Origin: Chytriomyces cf. hyalinus JEL632
Taxonomy: Eukaryota > Chytridiomycota > Chytridiomycetes > Chytridiales > Chytriomycetaceae
Length of the DNA: 64,000 nt
Reading direction: 5' to 3'
Assembly: GCA_025435555.1 (NCBI GenBank)
Contig: JAIWWG010000019.1
Coordinates: 124,001 to 188,000, forward strand
Shown: positions 6,858-55,561 of the stretch, in pieces
How positions within the stretch are numbered: position 1 is the first letter of the stretch
How the letters are laid out: each line of letters opens with the position of its first letter
The notes under the pieces: generated by a model
Seen by the model: the letters and a program-made list of their open reading frames with translations, nothing else
Databases searched by the model: none
What the model was told of the DNA's origin: nothing
Made by a program: the position numbers and the translations under genes

Positions 6858-9800
6858 CTAATCTGCGTTTGCGTCGTCGTCGGTGATGATGCGCAAGAAC
6901 ACTCTGTTTTGCGAGGTGAGACTTTTCGTCAGCAACTTCCCATCTCAGGAACAACGAAATAAATAAGCATAAAAACTCAACTCTTCCAAAGTGGTTTGGG
7001 AGATGCCCCACTGCAGCACCCCATGATCTGCTTTCTGCTCTTCGATTGTTTCGAATAATTTTGGGATAGACTTGGCCGCCGCTGGGAACTCGTATGCCGT
7101 GCTGATTGAAAAAGCAAAAATTCGAAACGTCAGTACTCTCCCCACGAGAGTATAAAACATGATATTCTTACTTGGTCGAGAACGCGTCAATCTTTTTCCA
7201 TCCCACTGGCAGAACACTCTCGATAAACCGTGACGCCCGCTCCGTGTCGTGTGAAAGAGAGTGGAACGAAAGCTTAAACCCAGTGCCGTACAGCTCCTTC
7301 AATCTGAGGGGTTGTGCCATGCATCGCAGGGATCCTTTCGCCATGATTCCAATCCGCTGGCAAAGCGCCTCGGCTTCTTCCATAGAGTGCGTTGTCAGGA
7401 TGATCGTCTTGTCACCACGTGCGTCTTGGATAATGTTCCAGATCAAACGACGAACTTCAGGGTCAAGACCGGTCTAAACAAATGAGCAGAGAATATAAGT
7501 CAGGTTGGAGGCGAAAACATTGCAGAGCAAAAAAAACAGTCGCTCACCGTTGGCTCATCCAAAAAGACAACAGCTGGGTTTCCAACAAGAGCGATTGCGA
7601 TCGACAAACGACGTTTCTCTCCACCAGACAAGTTCTTGGACAAACGATGCTTCAGAGCAATCAATGAAACTTGCTCCAGCGACTTTTCAACGGCCGAAGC
7701 CTCACCGCCACTTTCAACTCCTTTCAAACGCGCCTGAAAGACAAGAGGAATTAGAAACATATTCATGTGGACATATATGGCATGCGCGTCGAGCAAAAAA
7801 AAAACTCACGTAGAAGTACAAATGCTCTTCAACGGTCAAGTCTTCCCACAAGATGTCAAACTGTGGGCACACTCCAATGTTGTTGTAGACCATTGCCTGC
7901 TGAGTCTTGATATCAAAGCCAGCGAGTCTGGCATGCCCGGCACTAGCTTCATACAGTCCCGTCAAGATGTTGATGAGAGTGGTCTTTCCAGCTCCGTTTG
8001 GACCAAGGAGCCCGAAAATAACGCCCGACTCAGCCGCAAAGGTAACATCACGCACCGCTACTTTAGGACCAAGTCCTTTCCGACCCGCGTAAACCTTGCG
8101 CATGTGTGACATGATGATTGGGCTTGACGGGTCGAATTTGTTGTTGTCGATACGGGCGCGTTCGGCACGCACGTCGTCGTCTTCACGCGTGTCGAGCTCT
8201 TTTGTTGCGGAAAGGGCCATCGCGGACTCTGTTTTGGGGTCCTGCGAGTTTTGAACATTGAAAGATGTCAGTATCGTGTCTGGTAATTGGATGGGTCCTC
8301 GGAACAAAAAACAGAGACAACTTACGACTCCTCCATTGGCTTTGCTGCGCTGCTTGCTCTGAGACAACGCAATCAAGTCGGTGATGGGGAAATGCCATGG
8401 TCTCGCAACACCAAATTCAGTGGGCACAACTGCATTCATGTACGCCGCAAGGGCTCCGTATGCGAAAATTTCGAAGAAGAGGAATCCACAGATGCTGCGG
8501 AACTCAGTGCCTTGAGCAAATTGAGAGTTTCCAAAAGGCTGACGAAAGCAGTACAAAAAAAAAATGGTGGGTACATTTGAACTAATGTGTTGTGCACGGT
8601 TCGAAGGGAAAAGAGACTCACAAGTGATCCTTCAGTATAACTGGCAGTGTTCATCAAACTCAAGCCTCTGTAGAATGCAAATGGTGGCCAGATATTGAGG
8701 ACAGGGAACTGGAAGCTGTCTTCATACAGATCCGACAGGACCAGAGAAATGACGACTCCAACAAGAACAACCAAGAATGTCATGACTGGAAAGAATTGAA
8801 ATTGAGACAAGAGAAATTAAAAAGTATTTGGGGAATTACCAAGCGCAATACGACTTTTGGAGAACAAAGTTGCGAGCAGAAACGCGAGTGCAATTTGCAC
8901 ATTTCCCCACAAAAAGAACAGGGCAATCAGGACAAAAGGTGCGGTCTTGGTGAACATGTCGAGCTTGGTAACGCGTCCAACTACAATAAAGACAAGCGTG
9001 GAGAAGATGAAGAGCACAAAGAAGGTGAGGTAGTGTGTGATGTAGTAGGCCCAGGACTTGACACCGTTCATTTTCATCATGATGTAGCTGAGAAAGAGAA
9101 AGAGTTAGTATTCGCACAAGACTACCGGAGAAGTGATAGAGAAGTTTACATTCGGTCTTCTTTCTCTGTTGGGTTTGGAAAATAAAAGGGTTCAATCGGC
9201 GTGAAATTGCGTTACGTAACAAAATTTTACCCTTCACAAGCATGATGACAAAGATGGGCAGCAGGAAACTGACTCCAAACGGATACAGAATTCGCCCAAT
9301 GAGACCACCGAATGGAAGCGTCAGAGCCGTGTCCTTCGTGAACGGAAAGGCGCGAATGCCTTGAGTCACAGTGGCCCTCTGCAGAGTGTCATTCTGACCC
9401 GCAAACGCTCTCAGCGCAGCTTGGCCCAACTGAGCAGCAGACACAAGCTGGCGGAACCCTTGTGTTGGGAAGTTGGCCGACGAACTCACACGCACATCGG
9501 TTCCGTAACTTAAAACAATTTTCAGACGCAAAGATGAAGCGTCAAAACTCTCCAAAAACAGGCCTCCACTTGGCATTTTCGACAACACGGCACCCGCGTT
9601 CAATTGGAAGGCTGTCAGGTCTTGCACTGTACGCTGGCCCGCGGGAACAAGCAAAATTGTCTTGTTGAGGGTGGCAAGATCGGCAATCAAGTTGTTGAGA
9701 TATTTGGAGATGGCATCGTCAATTGCGTCAGCGGTTTGCAGTTTGTCGGAGGTTTCGTAGTACGGGTACAGTTGAACACCCTTCAGCTGCAAAGGATTTT

Positions 9801-10845
9801 TGTCGGCAGCGTTGATTGACACGTTGATGTAGATGCGTTGCGCAATACTGCCAAGGAGCCCAGTTGATGGGTTGAAGGAGGGAGTGGTGAGTCCACTTGC
9901 ATTGAACGTGGCGAGAGCCGTAAAGGGAACATTTCCCCCATTGGGCTTAGTTCCGAATACGGCCGCTAATTCCGGCGCAGATCCGGCCACGGACCAACCG
10001 GAAGTTTGAAATCCGGAAAAGTAACGGAACGAGGTAGCGTCAAAGCTCATTGGGTTTGTGAGCAGTTTTTGAAGCTGGCCAGACCATCCTTCGTCGACGG
10101 GTGGGATGTAGGTGGAGTCGAGTTTCGCAAGTCCGGTCAGATTGGCGTTGCGTTCATAGATATCCGAGTTCTTTGGAAAGTCCGTTCCAAACCAGTAAAC
10201 GCCTGAGACACAGAAGAGTAAGTACATTCAACGGATTTATATAATTACTAATTGTGCTCTACATGGTTTTTTGGCGCCCAGCGCCGCTGCTCCCGGATTG
10301 GCCAATTTGGCGAAGGAGATATATCGCAGATAGTTGACGCTTTTGCCGTTGGGGACATCGACACCGTAAACACCTGGTTCGGACTGGTTGTAGATCGGCC
10401 ATCCAATGGGAACCAGGGAGTTGTTGTTGCTGCAGTATTGGATATCTGGACCAGGGTGTGTGAGATGATTTACAGTCGGGAATGAAGGAGTGTCTCCTCA
10501 CCTTCGACGGTCTGACTTCGGGCAATAAGGTCGTTGATGACTTTGCCCAAAATGGCGGAGATCAGGACCATCATGAGGGGACAAAGGCTGTGGATGATGT
10601 GTCAGCATTGACGCTCGAATGAACGGCCAGGCAGCGTGGGCAAGCCCAACACACAGCCGAGAGACTCACCAGATACAGCACACGTTTGTGAACATCTGTC
10701 TCTTCTGGTAGCTGATGGTCTTGCGAGAGAGTGCCTTCAACTGGTTGGCTTTCCTGACTCTGACGCCAGGTTTGTCCACGCCGGCTGCAGTAGCAGCGGG
10801 AACAGCCACAGTGACGCTGACAGGGTGTTCGGTCGCAGAGGACAT
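6858..10845 (-). CDS. ABCA-family half-transporter, copy 1
   Basis: Thirteen exons (10670-10845, 10502-10587, 10263-10445, 9231-10202, 9150-9165, 8840-9087, 8622-8785, 8326-8538, 7810-8241, 7548-7733, 7172-7473, 6982-7101, 6858-6903) keep phase throughout and give 1047 residues. The order is a cytosolic N-terminus, TM1, a large extracellular loop in exon 4, a six-helix membrane domain and one nucleotide-binding domain. The NBD shows Walker A (GPNGAGKTT), Q loop (CPQFDILW), signature ([10 protein letters not shown]), Walker B ([13 protein letters not shown], split by an intron) and H loop (TTHSMEEAE). ABCA proteins move lipids across membranes; half-size forms presumably dimerise. Exon 5 is a 16-base micro-exon. 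Copy 3 at 33.7 kb has the same 13-exon structure. Confidence 0.92.
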
Positions 10846-11256: not shown

Positions 11257-14200
11257 ATGGAGTTTGCTCAGACCACCGCCCCGAAGATCATGAAGAAGCA
11301 GCCCTTCTTCAAGGCTTTCTTCTCGCAAATGGGCATCATGCTGAAGAGGAACGCTGTCCTGCAGGTACCCATATCCGGAGGTCCGGAAGCTGTGAATCGC
11401 TGCCCGGACCATTTGACAGACCAAATAACCGTCGCTGTCCTTCCAGATTCGATACAAAGCTTCGACTTTTGCGCAGACCATTCTTGCGCCGCTCATCTTC
11501 CACTTGGTCTTGTTTGTTTTGCAGCAGGCGGACTATGCGAACCAACGTCTGGCCACACCGCACCCCCCCGTGGGTGCTCTTGATGGTGAGACCCTGCTTT
11601 GATATTCTGTCGCAAAACAAGCTCGAACTGATTCATCTTTCGCCTCTCGTCCGGCAGGTCTGCAGCCATGCACAGTGAGTTACTCCCTTTTCACCAGCGA
11701 TATATCCGCACTGACGAACGATTCACTGCACAGCCCTACACAGGAAACTGTATCCTGATGATGTACTGTGAGTGTTCAACAAAATGCTCTCAATTTCTCC
11801 TCTCCTCATTGACCGGTCCCTCCAGACCCTGCAACCACCGAAACAACTCAGTACATGAAGAACTTTGCGGACGCAAACAAAGCACGAACAGGGAACACCT
11901 TCTCAATTTCTTCCACTACCCTCACGGATGACAAATACAAGGCTGCATCCGGAGACGCATCGACAATCTACCCAGTGGCTTCGCAGGACTATATTTACAA
12001 CTACGCCCTGAACAACCCCAATGTCACTCGTTGGGCTGTGACTTTTGACACTGTTACGACTCCGTACGTCAACGTCCGTTACCAGCTCTGGTACAACGCA
12101 ACCTTGACTGCCAACGGAAGCGACATTTTTGGGAGAGAATTGATTAGCACAATTAGAGGACTCGACGAGGCCATCAGTTGAGAAATTCGAAATATTCCTT
12201 CACATTCCCGTTGCTGATTTCACGAATTCTAGTCACTGGATTGAACGGAAACTCAAAACAAGCAAATTTGGACTATCAAATGAAGGACTGGCCGTTGATT
12301 CCTGCAGTCACTCTCTCAGACACCATCGTGCAGACTTTGGGATCCTGCTTCTTTTTCTGCTCAGTGGTGGGTTAACACTCCTTTTGCACCAGTATATGAA
12401 GCGCTCATTTGCCAAATCTTGCAGATGGTCATCTTTATTTCAGTGCTGAACCAAATTGTCGGCGAAAAAGAGGCTCACCTGCGTCACGGAATGGAAATGA
12501 TGGGACTGTACCCGTCCGTATACTGGATCTCAAACTACCTGAGCGTCTCTTTCCTTGTCTTGATCAACTCGCTCCTCACTGTCCTATTTGGTCTCGCATT
12601 CCAATTCGAAGCGTTCAAAAATGCGAACTTTATGGCACTCTGGATCACATTCTTCCTGTTTGGGGAGAGTATGGTCATGCTGGCGTTCTTTTTGACTTGC
12701 TTTGTTCGTCAAGCGCGTGCAGGAGTTTTGCTTGGTATCTTCATCTTTGTCATTGGGCTCTTGTTTGAAAGTTTTGTATTTTCAAGTGGATTTTTGGGAT
12801 ACATTTGGTGGGTGCCTGAGCTGATTCCAACATTTGTTCCACCCAGTGAGTTCATTTTTTTGTTCATGGATCGTTACAACACCATTACTGAATTTTTTAT
12901 CACAGTTCTCGCCATCATTCCATTCTTCAATTTTGGTCACATCTTTTTGGACATCACCACATTTACAACGGGATACCTGGACCAGCTCACAAGCACCTAC
13001 ATTCCAGGCCCTGGGTTCCCATGGAGTGCTCTCTTTGAAAAGCTCCCGAAAAACCTTGTCCCCAGTTACAGTAACGGTACCCCAGACCTCCCCAACCCAG
13101 TTCAGTCGTGGTATCTTATGCTCATGGATATTGCCATTTTTGGTGTCTTGACCTGGTACTTTGACGCGATCATCCCCGACGAGTATGGAACCGCACACCC
13201 ACTGTGGTTTCCTCTGCTTCCCAGTTACTGGGGTTATGAAAAGTCAAAGACTGAAGGAGATGTTAAATCCTGGGTTAGAAAACTTGTGGCTTATACTTCA
13301 GGAGATATGCCCATCGGAGAGGAGGAAGCCGATGTTGCTGCGGAACGCAAGCGCGCTTTGTCGGAAGGTAGATTTCCGTTTTCGGCACTTCACCGCAATG
13401 ATTTTCTGTTTTCATGACGCAAATCTCCTTTTAACCCAGACGACGACTCTGCCATCAAGATTGTGAAGCTTCGTAAAACCTACCGTAAAAGCATGTTTTA
13501 CAAATCCGTGCAAGACAAACACGCCGTCCGCAACAGTAGTTTCACCCTCACGGAAGGAAAACTTCTCGCTCTCCTCGGCCAAAACGGTGCTGGAAAGTCC
13601 ACCACCATGTCCATGCTCGCTGGTCTGACCCCTCCCTCTGGTGGAGACGCCCTTATCTACGGACTCAGCGTTCGCTCGCAAATGAGTCAAATTCGTCGCA
13701 TGCTTGGTGTTTGCCCACAACACGATATCCTGTTTGAAGACCTTACTGCGCGCGAGCACATTGAACTGTATGCCGGATTGAAGGGTGTTCCTGCCGCTGA
13801 GTGGGCTGTTTTGTTTGAGGAGCGGTTGAAGGCTGTCAAGCTTTGGACTGTGAAGGATGTTCGGGCGGGAACTTACAGTGGAGGAATGAAACGTCGTTTG
13901 TCGCTTGTCATTGCCACCATTGGAGACCCGCAAGTCATGTTCATGGATGAGCCTACCACCGGAATGGATCCAGTTAACCGTAGACACGTTTGGAGTTTCA
14001 TTGAAAAGTTCAAGCAGGATCGTGTCATTATTTTGGTAAAGTTAGCCACCGTTCGTATTGTGTGGCTGTTGACTAATAGTTGCCTTGCCCGGTCATGTAG
14101 ACCACTCACTCCATGGAAGAGGCGGATGTTTTGGGTGACAGAATTGCCATCATGGCGCACGGACAACTGTCTGCGATTGGTAAATGAACTCCGTTCAACA

Positions 14201-14653
14201 ATTTGAATCTTGCCATCTTTAAAACTTAACTCTTGTGTCTCCATAACTTTTCAGGAAACTCAATCTCTTTGAAAAACAAATTCGGGGCGGGATACCGCAT
14301 CTCAGTCATTACATCGAATCCTGCTGTCATGAAGGAAAAAGTTCAGTCTTCTGTCCCCAACGCTGTCCTTGAAGACGACAGCGCCGGTGCACTGATTTAC
14401 CAGTTCCCCATTTCAAGCACGCCCAACATCCCTTCGTTCGTGAAGTGGTTGGAGGAGAACAATGACGGAATTGTTAAAAGTTGGGGTATCTCTCAGACAA
14501 CAGTTGAGTGGCGTTGCTTGATTTTGGGTTGGCAATTGTTTGATCTGGATCTCTGACTTCTTTTTCTTTTTTCTTACTCAGTTGGAAGAAGTGTTCCTGA
14601 AGCTCATTCGGGATGCGAACCCAGGTGGATACGTCGCGACAAAGACAAGTTAA
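11257..14653 (+). CDS. ABCA-family half-transporter, copy 2 (diverged)
   Basis: Twelve exons (11257-11364, 11447-11585, 11658-11674, 11734-11767, 11826-12176, 12233-12366, 12425-12845, 12906-13367, 13440-14035, 14101-14179, 14255-14502, 14582-14653) give 886 residues. The N-terminus is KKQPFFKAFFSQMGIMLKRN then a first TM helix. The extracellular part is shorter than in copies 1 and 3, followed by NQIVGEKEAHLRHGMEMMG, the ABCA membrane-domain signature, and six helices. The NBD has GQNGAGKST, CPQHDILF, YSGGMKRRLS, VMFMDEPTTGMDP and [10 protein letters not shown] 61-base intron at 12845/12906 is readable in frame and easy to miss. It ends SQTT-LEEVFLKLIRDANPGG. This is a distinct ABCA subtype, not a recent copy of ABCA-1. 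Confidence 0.9.
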
Positions 14654-33711: not shown

Positions 33712-36700
33712 ATGACGGACGGAGGATTCATGGTCGCCGATACTGCTAGACCGCGCAATCAGGACGTCGTTAGCGGCGATGTCTTACCGCCGTTGTCTTT
33801 GAAGGGAAAGCCGAACCAGCTGAAGGCATTGACTCGCAAGACCATCAGCTACCAGAAGAGGCAGATGTTTACAAACATTTGCTGCATCTGGTGAGAATCG
33901 TCTTCATTACCATTTGAACTGTCGCTCGCCTTACGCCGATTGGCCGCAACAGTCTGTGTCCTCTGATGATGGTCCTGATATCTGCGATTCTGGGCAAGGT
34001 CATCAACGACCTGATCTCAAAGAGTCAGGCGCTCGAAGGTTAGCCGTCTTGCTTTACAACGGCCCTTTTAAGTTTTCCAAACTGTCGTTGTCTCCCTCAG
34101 ATATCCAGTACTGCAGCAACAACAAGTCGCTCGAAGCGATAAACTGGCCCATATTCAATATTTCTGACCCGGAAATTCACAATTCCAAAGTCCCGAACGG
34201 AAAAAGCGTCAATTTTTTGAGTTACTTCTCTTTAGCAAAACTGGCCAATCCAGGTGCAGCCACTTTGGGTGCCAGAAAGTCTTGTAAGTTGTGCAGTGAA
34301 TCTTGAAAACGCTGTCGATTCAGCAACTTACGGAAAACAAACAAAAAAGGCGTGTACTGGTTCGGCGATGACTTCCCGCAGTTCTCTGAAATCTACGAGC
34401 GCAACGCAAACCTTTCTGCGATCGCCAGACTGGACTCCACCTACATCTCCCCACCAAATGAAGGGTGGGTCGGACAATTGAACAAACTGCTGACGAAACC
34501 GAGGGAGTTCGACACGATTTCGTTCCGGTATTTCACTGGATTTCAGACTTCAGCATGGTCAGTCGCGGGTGCCTCGCCCAATCTCACCTCTGTACTGGGA
34601 TCGAAATCGAATCAAGGGAACATTCCTTTCCAGCAGGTGCGAACGATTAACGCAACAGCACTCATAACTCCGTCATTCGATCCTTCATCGGGAATCTTGG
34701 GATCTGTCGCACAGCGGCTGTTCGTCAATGTTTCCGTAAATACCGGAAACAGAGAAAATCCATTTCTGGTGAACGGTGCTCAACTGTACCCGTATTTCGA
34801 AACGACAAACACGCTTCAAACGACAGATGCCATCGACGATGCGATTTCAAAGTACCTGAATAGCCTGATTGCCGATTTAGCCGCGTTAAACAAAACCATT
34901 CTGCTCGTCTCCGCGGATAAAAGAAGCGTCCGGGAGCTCACGATATTTCAGCTGAACGCGGCTGCTATTCTTGCTAAAATGCCAAGTGGGGGATTGTTTT
35001 TGGAAAGCTTTAGTGCGGAAGATTTGCGGATGAAAATTGTGTTGAGCTACGGGACAGATGTGCGTGTCAGTGCGTCAGCAAACTTTCCCAGTCAAGGGTT
35101 CAGGCAGTTAGTGACCGTATCACAACTTGGTCAAGCAGCACTACGTGCGTTCGCTGTCAACAATGAGACTTTACAGAAGGCCACTGTGACCCAAGGTATT
35201 CGTGCATTTCCATACACGCGAAACACTGCCTTGTCATTGCCGTTTGGAGGGTTGATTGGGCGCATTTTGTATCCGTTTGGAGTCAGCTTCTTGTTGCCGA
35301 TCTTTGTCATCATGCTCGTAAAAGGTGAGTTGTTATTCCATTCACTTTAACTGAAAAGAACTGATGACGAATTTCGACATTTTAGAAAAGGAGGACAGAA
35401 TGTGAGTGCCTTTAACCAGGTTCTCATGGTATTTTCATTCTGACACATCTTATCTTCCATCAGCTACATTATGATGAAAATGAACGGTGTCAAGTCGTGG
35501 GCCTACTACATCACGCATTACATCACATTCCTCATTCTCTTTGTCTCCTCCGCTCTTGTCTTTATTGTGGTTGGACGCCTTACCAAGCTTGACATGTTCA
35601 CCAAGACCGCTCCTTTTGTCCTGATTGTCCTGTTCTTTTTGTGGGGAAACGTACAAATTGTACTTGCGTTCGTACTTGCCGCCTTGTTTTCAAAGAGTCG
35701 CACTGCGCTTGGTATGATTGATCCCATTTCAAGTGTTTGAACCGCGTGTTCCTTAGGATTTAACCCTTTTTCACCCATTTGCAGTCATGACCTTTTTAGT
35801 GGTCTTAGTGGGAGTAGTGATATCTCTCGTTTTGGCAAATTTGTATGAGGATACATTTCAGTTCCCGGTGCTGAATCTGTGGCCACCCTTTGCGTTTTAC
35901 CGTGGTCTGAGCTTGATGAATACTGCTAGTTTCACTGAAGGAGTCATTGTAAGAACAAATTCCTCAATTATTCGCTTTCAATGATTTAACCCGCCGTCCT
36001 TATTTCTTAGCCTTTTGGGAACTCTCAATTTGCCCAAGGCACTGAGTTTCGCAGTATCTGTGGATTTCTGTTCTTTGAAATTTTCGCATACGGAGCGCTT
36101 GCAGCGTACATGAACGCAGTTGTACCTACTGAATTTGGAGTTGCGAAGCCGTGGCATTTCCCCATCACGGACTTGATTTCGTATGCTCAAAAAAAGCAGC
36201 TCAGCAAAGCGAATGGAGGCATGGTCAGTGACTTCTGGCGCATCATTCCAGATCCTTTCGACATTCAGTGTATTGACTCAATTACTTCCAGGATCCGGTC
36301 AGTGAATCGTTGATGCTTGACTCTCGAGAAGATGACGATGTTCGAGATGAACGCGTCCGCATTGATACTGGTCACCACAACCCCGCATCTCCCATCATCA
36401 TTTCTCACATGCGCAAGGTCTACTCGGGTCGAAAAGGGCTCGGCCCCAAAGTGGCGGTGCGTGATGTTACATTTGCGGCCGAGTCGGGCGTTATTTTCGG
36501 GCTGCTTGGGCCAAATGGAGCTGGAAAAACGACACTCATTAATATCTTGACGGGACTGTATGAAGCCACTGGTGGACAGGCCAAACTTGCTGGTTTTGAC
36601 ATCAAGACTCAGCAGGCAATGGTCTACAACAACATTGGAGTTTGTCCACAGTTTGACATTTTGTGGGAAGACTTGACCGTTGAAGAGCATTTGTACTTTT

Positions 36701-52561: not shown

Positions 52562-55561
52562 TCAACCAAACACACCCACAACTTTCATAGCAATAATAGC
52601 ACCAACGATTATTACCAGACCCGCAACGAGGCATAATACAAGCACTTTGCGCCTGTGGTAAAAAGAAATTGCACGGTGCATAAACGCATGAGTCGCAAAA
52701 ACAAAAACAAAAAAAAGAACCTCCCCACCGTTTTGAGCCATCTTCAATTTTCCCCATCATTCCTTCGGAAAGAGGAGGTAAATTATCGACCCGAATCACG
52801 AGAGACGGCTGAGATTGAGATGATCTATTTTGAAGGTTTGTTTCTTCCAGCTCAATGACATGAGACAGTTCCGTTTGATTGAGTTGATATCTACGACTGG
52901 CGGTTGTCGCATCTCCAGCATACAATCCACAAGCAGCAAACGCGTGCACGACTTTATCCTGCGATGGTTGCAACTCCACAACGGGTGTGAAAAGTTCAAT
53001 CAGCCCATTGGATGAAATTCCCGAGATTCTGACTTGATTTGATGCGCAAAATCTGGAGGGCAGCAGGGCATACGTCTGTATTGCGAAAAAAAAAAAAAAA
53101 AAAAAAGAAGGTAAGAAATATGCAAGATTCGAAACGAACGTGGCCAACAGCCAGAAACTCACACTAAACAAACTGACGCCAGAATGCTCTGCGCACCTTT
53201 CCAGCGAAAAATTCAGGATCCCGTTCCGGTCTCGACTCTGAACTTCCACTTGGACGTCAGACCACACAGGTTCCACTAACGCCTGTTTCATAAATTCGAG
53301 TCGCTCTTCCATCAAACCGAACCCTTCCATTTTGAAAGTAAACCCGCCTCCGGACGTTGCAATACGGTCCAAAGACTCAAAAGCGTCCAAAATACCGACA
53401 CTGACTGCAAACACGCGTGCAAACGAATGCAGTGGCCGTTGCCCGCATTTTTGCAACAGAAGCGCGCAAACAGGATTGACATTGAACAACAAGCCATCAG
53501 ACACGATAATAATTTGAACAGGCGCGATGGCTTCCGCAGAGTTTTGTTCAAACACGGATTCAAGCGCTGAAAACAAATTTGTGGTATTCCCAAGCTCCGA
53601 GTGGCGGGGGAGGTTGAGGAAACTCTTCACAGTGTCAACGGTTATATCAGAGAGACTTTCATATTTTGCAGACATTGATTTTGAGGTGGATCCAAACAGA
53701 TGGACATTAAAGGAGAACGTGGAAGGCAAGAAGGACAGCAGATGCATCACAGAGTCTTGAGCTAATTTCGACTTGACACCCTGCATCGAACTTGACACAT
53801 CCACCAAAAACGCCACGTTGGATTTTTGAACCTGGGAAATCCGAAAAATGTGAGAATCATCAACCTGACGGTGGTTCACTTAAATAGCAGGAGTTACCAT
53901 GTGATGTTTTGGAGGAACGAAGGCGACACCTAACGCTGTTGTTCCGGAATTTTCATTCCTTTCAGTAACACAATACGCGTTGCAAGGCTCTGACAATTGA
54001 ATTTCCAACGAAACTTCCCGATCAGATTCGGTTGCATTGTTACCCACAAGGATTTGGACATTGGCGTCAGCATCGGTTTGAACGATACTCAATTCGTGAT
54101 GAGAAGGGCTGCTGATGCATTCAATCGGTTTCATTATGACAACTTGGACGTGTGCAGATGATTGTGTGGTTTCCATGCGCTTGTCAGATATTGCGAGAGG
54201 AGATTTTGCAGGTATTTTGAAAAGCATAGAGGCTGGGTTTTGATGGGGACGCAAGTGCTGTATATATTTGATCGTGGTTGTAACGCAACGCAGGTTGGAG
54301 ATGTGCTTGAGAGAAACTCGAAAGACTGGTGACAAATAAAAAACATGAGATAAGAATAAAAAAGGAAATAAAATGAGATCTTACATTCTGGTAAACCAGG
54401 AATCGCATTCCATGTCGCTGCGTCGCATTCAAATCCCACAATGGAAGCACCTTCAGGTATCGGAAAACAAAACAGGCCAAACATGTCGTATTGGCTAATA
54501 TCCTCATGACGCACTTCAAACGTCTGTGTCAGCACGACGTGTGCACACGCTCCGACGATCAAAACACGCGACTCCTGTCCCGACTCATCCCAAAAGCGTG
54601 CCCCAACCTCAAGTACACGAGTCCACTCCATGCCTTCAAGCCCATGGGCACCTTTGCATGATGCAAGAAACCCTCTTCGGTTCATGCAGACAAGTCTCTT
54701 TAGCAACATCTCTGCCCCACGATATCCTTCCTCAACAAACGCCCTCCGATACAAATCACACGCAACCCTGGTATCCTTTACAAGAACCCCACACACACCA
54801 AGCTCATACATCTGAGCAAGCCGCGTAATCGCCACCACGTCCCCACTTCCTACAGCCTGCTTGTACCATTCAACCGCTTGCCGTTCATCGACAGGAAGTG
54901 ACCCCCGACCTTCCAGGTAGAAATCTCCAAGCATGCATTCAGCGCGCTGTGAGCGCTTGGAAGCTGCTCGAAAGAAATGCTCAAGTGCAAGAGCGTCATT
55001 TACAACCTCCAGTTCAAAACGGGAGTCGTAGTTGCCACCTTTTCGAAAAACTCGATGGGATGTTACCGCTTGGTGTGTAGAAGGAGAGGAAATGAACGCG
55101 ACTATATGTGGGATAATGGTGGCGGCATCAAACAACGGGTGATGTATAAGACGCGCATTTTTCGCGAGATGGAGTTTTGGTGTAATGGACGACCGCGAAT
55201 CAATACAAACAATGGCGTACGGCATTGCGATGGTGTATGCAATCAGTTTGAACTCGATAATACATGCAGGATCGCTCCAGTATTCGTCCGATATTAAACA
55301 GAGTGCAACATCAGAGTTAAATATCTGCTGAGGGTGGTGGTCGCGATTAGATATGGCTGTGCCGCCATTGCTCTGATGGATGGTGTAGCCTTGGGTAATC
55401 AGTGACCGCGCAATCGATTCAGGGTCCATTGATGTTATGTTGGGTGAAGATGCTTGTCCATTTGAACGAGTCACAGAGTTGCGCGCACTGAAGCTCAAGA
55501 AGATGCTGAGCTTCGGGACACTGGAAACATTGTCATTCGTCCTCGCCGTGTGCTCCATCAC
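52562..55561 (-). CDS. TIR - Sel1 - VIT - VWA protein with C-terminal membrane anchor
   Basis: Five exons (54385-55561, 53898-54325, 53163-53831, 52729-53075, 52562-52652) close all phases and give 903 residues. Residues about 17-150 form a TIR domain: strand KLSIFLSFSARN, then NSDVALCLISDEYW and SDPACIIEFKLI, with Glu103 placed as the catalytic Glu of TIR NADases. Residues about 190-290 hold Sel1 repeats (AECMLGDFYLEGRG, AVEWYKQAVGSGD, AITRLAQMYELGV). Then comes a VIT domain (AHVVLTQTFEV, LFCFPIPEGASIVGFECD) followed by a VWA with an intact MIDAS (DVSSSM, TTNL, SDG). The end RRKVLVLCLVAGLVIIVGAI is a tail anchor, so the TIR end faces the cytosol. Each domain is recognisable; the combination is unfamiliar to me. 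Confidence 0.85.

Follow-up and report, generated by a model that had tools for sequence, protein, structure and literature searches.

Intracellular VIT-vWFA proteins are described as a lineage found in many groups, fungi among them, and are discussed as binding hubs, with the residues of the metal ion-dependent adhesion site (MIDAS) tied to partner contacts in members of the wider family (PMC10539598). Sel1 repeats are likewise described as adaptors in the assembly of complexes (PMC7145615). Classical TIR domains in the fungi of EukProt are reported from Rhizoclosmatium globosum only, with very few reported earlier (PMC13142454). One survey of NOD-like receptors (NLRs) gives zero NLRs for the chytrid genomes it examined (PMC4986451), and a later survey cites Chytridiomycota NLRs with TIR domains and, for Pezizomycotina, describes NLR effectors that are TIR-like (PMC9815663). 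Here we analyze a minus-strand gene in a 64,000-nucleotide stretch of the Chytriomyces cf. hyalinus JEL632 assembly (GCA_025435555.1, contig JAIWWG010000019.1, positions 124,001 to 188,000; the whole stretch is called the window below), in which a divergent TIR domain, Sel1-like repeats, a VIT-VWA pair and a hydrophobic C-terminal segment appear to be joined. The TIR-Sel1-VIT-VWA fusion looks real and unusual, and the residues of its TIR domain weaken the reading of the gene as an NAD-cleaving enzyme (NADase). We tentatively interpret the product as a tail-anchored intracellular VIT-VWA scaffold whose TIR domain is probably non-catalytic and would recruit other TIR proteins to a membrane.

As an open gene model, the TIR-Sel1-VIT-VWA-anchor gene is confirmed as it had been read in a preliminary description of the window. 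Five exons are separated by four introns of 59, 66, 87 and 76 nucleotides, each with GT-AG borders, and the joined frame is open, so that the gene is continuous and its splice phases close, both as described. Start and length differ from that description, the ATG lying at 55558 rather than 55561 and the product having 902 rather than 903 residues. The TIR domain, the Sel1 repeats and the detected VIT segment fall within one intron-free exon, which makes that part of the fusion independent of splicing. Of the 111 positions in the VIT model, the VIT_2 match covers 7-52 before exon 1 ends, and a complete VIT domain would have to cross the junction of exons 1 and 2 before reaching the VWA domain.

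Among the domains that the preliminary description had named, Sel1 (E = 7.2e-11), VWA (VWA_3, 3.7e-9; VWA, 8.1e-7) and VIT_2 (3.5e-6) match the 902-residue product over their Pfam cut-offs and TIR_2 stays below its own, as do VIT (1.4e-4; 22.4 bits against 26.5 required), VWA_2 (3e-4) and VWA_CoxE (0.014). The NCBIfam model TIGR03788, which we take to be a model of VIT-VWA proteins (marine sortase-target protein), matches residues 435-735 with E = 1.8e-20 and 73 bits, far under its curated equivalog cut-off of 551.65. The Sel1 repeats are thus recovered, and so is the VIT-VWA pair with its intact MIDAS, all residues of which are present (D545-x-S547-x-S549, T618 and D646). Searches of the PDB return Sel1 proteins for the Sel1 part, the best of them from E. 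coli (3.9e-15). The C-terminal half matches PARP4 along residues 440-807 (1.5e-4 with the whole protein, 8.6e-5 as a separate piece) and, more weakly, ITIH1 (0.0059 and 0.0031, respectively).

The claimed C-terminal anchor corresponds to a strong membrane segment (hydropathy 3.23) which, by inspection, resembles a tail anchor. The eight most hydrophobic windows of the protein all lie at residues 875-900, with none near the N-terminus, and no secretion signal is seen in the hydropathy profile. None of the NACHT, NB-ARC, WD40, HET, death, ADP-ribosyltransferase or BRCT domains is among the eight Pfam families matched at E ≤ 10. PADLOC returned no match for the 902-residue protein, and the VWA piece, the Sel1 piece and an alignment of three TIRs found no relatives in the viral contigs searched.

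We take residues 17-143 to be a divergent TIR domain by descent. This assignment is supported by a profile of 19 other TIRs, built with the protein itself excluded, which scores residues 1-180 at 18.9 bits, against at most 7.1 among 10,000 shuffles. Similarly, a profile of fungal TIRs only gives 15.0 bits for the same residues (best shuffle 8.8) and 11.2 bits for the entire 902-residue protein, against at most 8.3 among 5,000 shuffles of the first 180 residues. In a MAFFT alignment the domain also lines up over its core with 10 TIRs from bacteria and a viral contig, and Cys99 and Glu102 fall in invariant columns. The TIR domain of the preliminary description is therefore upheld as a matter of homology and falls short as a Pfam match.

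The 19 comparison TIRs comprise nine from the same genome, nine from bacterial loci and one from a viral-contig locus (L055). Those of the same genome represent nine of the 15 places with TIR_2 matches elsewhere in it (the first at C123, C184, C68, C90, two at C46, C166, one at C187, and C211); the second place at C123, C37, C46:6235, C204 and two further places at C187 were left out. Exons of these genes were joined by eye, and the C211 row stops at its Cys, the exon that follows being uncertain, so that it has no residue in the Glu column. Nine of ten bacterial loci were used, L054 being a fragment, and the PDB searches with TIR profiles drew on 11, 8 or 3 of the 19 rows.

The pattern of conservation within the domain bears directly on catalysis. 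At the 12 columns where 85% or more of the 19 other TIRs agree, the protein keeps S22, G57, Y93, C99 and E102, with F23 replacing Tyr. Glu102 occupies the column of the catalytic Glu of TIR NADases, which is Glu in all 18 of the other TIRs that reach it; the preliminary description had identified this Glu and its Cys correctly and misnumbered them as Cys100-x-x-Glu103. The BB loop is altered: His61 replaces a Trp and Ser63 an Asp that are found in 19 of 19 other TIRs, and Ile69 stands where 18 of 19 have Gly. Further departures are D96 for Ser (18/19), A98 for Asn (18/19) and I106 for Ala (17/18), and the nearest Asp past the start of the loop is residue 73, ten residues downstream. We considered a hidden intron or frame shift behind the missing W-x-D motif and rejected it: the sole upstream GT in 55447-55262 (at 55406) would define spans to 55328 or 55325 of 79 or 82 nucleotides, which break the frame. 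The loop holds no W-x-D in any of its three frames, and the two alternative frames lack F-x-D as well.

Profiles of 11 and of 8 other TIRs match Cat1, AbTIR, SARM1, Roq1 and RPP1 in the PDB, which we take to be known NADases, partly from their entry names. With a profile of three TIRs from the same genome, the W-I-D of the BB loop aligns with F-I-D of SARM1, its Asp being D594 when counted from chain residue 563. The Trp is not strictly required, since SARM1 has Phe in that position. As to the Asp, the natural SARM1 variant D594E is reported to behave like the dead E642A, with NADase activity abolished (PMC9381744), and the BB loop is described as having to open for substrate (PMC10675840). 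Because the residue equivalent to D594 is lost and D594E abolishes the NADase activity of SARM1, we expect the TIR domain to have little or no NADase activity, with the retained Glu102 leaving room for doubt. The active NAD-cleaving effector of the preliminary description is accordingly disfavored.

We lean towards the scaffold with a docking TIR because VIT-vWFA proteins are discussed as hubs, an adaptor role is described for Sel1 repeats, and a TIR with an altered BB loop and a kept core could resemble an assembly module. On this reading, a TIR domain and Sel1 repeats would have been added ahead of an intracellular VIT-vWFA hub, and the tail anchor would hold the protein on a membrane with all of its domains towards the cytosol. 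Partner binding would fall to the Sel1 repeats and to the VIT-VWA half, whose MIDAS is complete. The TIR domain, deprived of the Trp, Asp and Gly of the BB loop, would most likely not be an efficient NADase; it would dock onto the genome's canonical TIR proteins, or help to assemble them, and would bring them to that membrane. Candidate partners are the 15 TIR_2 places elsewhere in the genome, some of which stand beside NACHT and WD40 domains.

Several observations weigh against this scaffold. The TIR signal is weak, since Pfam TIR_2 gives E = 0.2 and 12.6 of the 28 bits needed, and the gene is not listed in the whole-genome searches with Pfam TIR_2 and TIR. With a profile of bacterial TIRs only, the protein comes third at 7.6 bits, behind two shuffles (9.2 and 7.8). 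Glu102 and Cys99 are retained and would not be needed by a pure adaptor. The architecture is represented by one gene from one genome.

A role for the protein in immunity is possible because the genome has TIR exons that adjoin NACHT and WD40 domains. Such a role could take the form of a catalytically silent TIR adaptor, tail-anchored on an organelle and gated by the VIT-VWA ligand module, which would gather TIR-NACHT-WD40 receptors and TIR enzymes into a membrane platform for non-self recognition or death. We regard this fuller picture as doubtful.

Second in order of probability, and possible rather than likely, is a housekeeping membrane hub, in which the protein would be a tail-anchored adaptor of quality control or ubiquitin ligases and the TIR domain a relic or an all-purpose contact surface; defence would play no part. 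The Sel1 repeats speak for this reading: they match SEL1L, an adaptor of the endoplasmic reticulum membrane, in five PDB chains (7.7e-9 to 2.7e-7); the Sel1 part is nonetheless nearer to other Sel1-repeat proteins, such as its best E. coli match, than to SEL1L. A Dictyostelium VIT-vWFA protein is described as working with a WD40 F-box protein (PMC10539598), and the genes flanking the locus look ordinary (phosphoesterase and cytochrome-b5 type). Retention of both Glu and Cys in the TIR domain, on the other hand, suggests some TIR-specific role.

An active effector is less probable still, and in our view unlikely. It would require a working NADase TIR in which another residue replaces the missing Asp, with the VIT-VWA pair sensing a ligand and releasing the TIR at the membrane. 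The kept Glu102 and Cys99 fit such an enzyme, the BB-loop motif is intact in the genome's other TIRs, some of which stand beside NACHT and WD40 domains, and bacterial vWA proteins are described as having repeatedly gained TIR domains in conflict systems (PMC7159879). Against it stand the loss of the BB-loop Trp, Asp and Gly, the inactivity of SARM1 D594E (PMC9381744) and the distance of the next Asp, at residue 73. The further proposal of the preliminary description, that ligand sensing by the VWA domain drives the TIR enzyme, finds no direct evidence here, and the role discussed for VIT-vWFA proteins is that of binding hubs inside the cell (PMC10539598).

The remaining question is whether the gene model itself could mislead. 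The donor of intron 4, GTGGGG, is the weakest-looking of the gene. The hydropathy of exon 5 (3.23 over 19 residues) is reached by one of 1,367 stop-terminated 30-codon stretches in the six frames of the window, presumably exon 5 itself, which is in the counted set; this rarity favors intron 4 despite its weak-looking donor. A codon-usage measure trained on 11 further long open reading frames in the window ranks the model frame top of six in all five exons. It supports the gene model weakly and adds little to the open frames themselves, because every exon scores just below zero (-0.033 to -0.115 bits per codon) and stop codons in a frame incurred a penalty. That two genes, or a pseudogene, have been taken as one is very improbable: the model is drawn from sequence rather than transcripts, and the intron 4 donor and the negative codon scores speak for an artefact, whereas the TIR domain, Sel1 repeats and detected VIT segment share a stop-free exon of 391 codons, only about half of the VIT profile has been matched where that exon ends, so that a whole VIT would have to cross the junction, and the model frame scores best in every exon. 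Coordinates of all features are collected in Table 1.

Table 1. Features of the TIR-Sel1-VIT-VWA gene; coordinates are positions in the window, and domain assignments are predictions.
Feature	Position	Strand	Remarks
Whole coding region, ATG to stop	52562..55558	-	five exons, 902 residues
Exon 1, residues 1-391	54385..55558	-	TIR, Sel1 repeats and detected VIT segment in a single intron-free frame
Exon 2	53898..54325	-	presumed remainder of VIT and linker leading to VWA
Exon 3	53163..53831	-	
Exon 4	52729..53075	-	
Exon 5, stop included	52562..52652	-	
Divergent TIR domain, residues 17-143 (approximate limits)	55130..55510	-	TIR_2 below cut-off; 19-TIR profile 18.9 bits
BB-loop region, residues 58-75	55334..55387	-	His61 and Ser63 instead of Trp and Asp
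Glu102, in the catalytic Glu column of TIR NADases	55253..55255	-	Glu in 18/18 other TIRs reaching the column
Sel1-like repeats, residues 186-290 (approximate limits)	54689..55003	-	Pfam Sel1 7.2e-11, two stretches
VIT domain, residues ~331-440	54180..54568	-	split by intron 1 (54326-54384); VIT_2 3.5e-6 at residues 334-381; estimated past residue 381
VWA domain, residues 539-707, complete MIDAS	53313..53819	-	Pfam VWA_3 3.7e-9, VWA 8.1e-7
Post-VWA region, residues 708-866	52749..53312	-	split by intron 3 (53076-53162); PARP4 match continues to residue 807
C-terminal membrane segment, residues 876-894	52589..52645	-	Kyte-Doolittle 3.23; Lys-Arg-Arg-Lys before, eight residues after

The genome assembly (37.8 Mb, 242 contigs) carries a match to radial spoke protein 3 (1.9e-50), found in 0 control genomes, and 67 matches of chitin-synthase type (best 4.3e-166). 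The chitin-synthase search alone is not proof of a fungus, since 4 of the 14 control genomes, from bacteria and archaea, matched as well; together the two point to a flagellated, chytrid-like true fungus. A protein search of the genome with the protein gave 33 matches, which are its own five exons, 27 in the Sel1 part and the C90 TIR (E = 0.196, 28% over residues 8-104), and no full-length paralogue. The only VIT match in the genome at E ≤ 0.1 is this gene, itself under the cut-off. A flagellated fungus that has repeated TIR-NACHT-WD40 genes, 15 TIR_2 matches besides this gene and one apparently membrane-tethered TIR with an altered active site would offer a way into the wiring of fungal TIR signalling, and would also let one ask whether catalytic loss can make a TIR a recruiter.

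Eleven of the 15 other TIR_2 matches are over the cut-off. Their neighbouring domains were read from 10 open reading frames picked by eye (8 matched, 2 without a match), with gene boundaries also set by eye. TIR exons at C187 are followed by NPHP3_N/NACHT (5.3e-24) and WD40; two near-identical TIR-NACHT(NPHP3_N)-WD40 copies lie ~5.3 kb apart at C187:81000-90500 (L041), with a third match at 94149-94313, and are NLR-like. At C166:2000-11500 (L038) a TIR exon is likewise followed by NPHP3_N/NACHT (4.8e-23). TIR exons at C211:25500-34500 (L036) lie upstream of a 730-codon ankyrin-repeat frame, with which they may form a single gene. Three TIR_2 matches of equal score and frame length (C37:67998-68213, C46:6235-6450 and C204:209549-209764), two of them less than 7 kb from a contig end, are possibly copies of a subtelomeric or mobile gene. 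The TIR genes at C123:161000-170500 (L033), L034 and L040 resemble one another; near two of them lies a conserved stretch of the 'DFxxNHPxA' type, with no Pfam match in the one open reading frame tested, and a P-loop frame at L033 has a short septin match.

Other loci bear VWA domains or bacterial TIRs. C191:181500-191000 (L042) encodes a stretch that looks caspase-like by eye and is followed by VWA, Vwaint (2.8e-14) and a Vint Hint domain (2.9e-30). The genome's strongest VWA match, at C208:110287-113760 (L001), lies behind a Cys-containing stretch that is RING-like by eye. Among the bacterial loci, L047 and L049-L053 are TIR proteins from metagenome-assembled genomes of gut Clostridia type; two hydrophobic stretches, which look TM2-like by eye, close each protein, and L045 has MORN-like repeats by eye. 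Within the window, the frames flanking the gene match phosphoesterase and cytochrome b5. Two similar long frames at 8839-10227 (minus strand; no Pfam match) and 34307-35347 (plus strand) share a stretch beginning 'YWFG.DFP...' (14 further protein letters not shown) and are possibly duplicated transporter genes; an ABC-transporter frame lies at 13418-14203.

Comparison with known systems sets this architecture apart from each of its nearest relatives. The preliminary description had presented its modules as normally found apart and the design as possibly new. Consistent with this, among the titles and abstracts listed in searches of the open-licence literature none describes the TIR-Sel1-VIT-VWA combination, and two papers name three of the four domains; to our knowledge, none of the nearest known kinds has this domain order. 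VWA5A/BCSC-1 and Dictyostelium Vwa1 share with the protein a VIT before the VWA, a MIDAS and the apparent absence of a signal peptide, and belong to a family described in fungi (PMC10539598); the protein differs in the TIR and Sel1 repeats ahead of its VIT and in its terminal membrane segment. TEP1/DUF4062 is described as placing a TIR-like NADase domain in a large eukaryotic vault protein that also bears a vWA, with a NACHT and an active NADase (PMC13174449), whereas our protein matches neither NACHT nor WD40 and its BB loop is altered. Bacterial vWA-MoxR ternary systems couple TIR to vWA in conflict systems (PMC7159879); here the setting is eukaryotic, the VWA is of the VIT type, and the two flanking genes, to which our search for MoxR was limited, are not MoxR or STAND. 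The fungal HET domain is described as a remote TIR relative causing cell death, and TIR-like NLR N-termini are described in Pezizomycotina (PMC4986451, PMC9815663, PMC12881547); in contrast, our protein lacks a HET or NACHT match and has VIT-VWA and Sel1 in place of a nucleotide-binding domain.

PARP4, the vault ADP-ribosyltransferase, is the best solved relative of the C-terminal half and likewise combines VIT-VWA with an NAD-related fold. Our protein differs in having no ADP-ribosyltransferase or BRCT match, a TIR domain instead, and a putative tail anchor. A vault system combining the PARP4-like half with a TIR was considered and is kept as a resemblance only, with no major vault protein shown; the search for that protein gave no match in the genome and none in the control genomes either, which makes the search uninformative. 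With SARM1 and the plant and bacterial TIR NADases, the domain shares TIR homology and the Glu of the catalytic column; it has lost the BB-loop Asp (SARM1 D594) and the neighbouring Trp and Gly, the Trp being Phe in SARM1. MyD88 and TIRAP use their TIR domains for docking rather than catalysis, and TIRAP does so close to the membrane. MyD88 appears in our PDB searches as a general relative of the other TIRs only, and the protein has no death domain match; in using its TIR as a docking surface, as we propose, it would nevertheless resemble these two adaptors.

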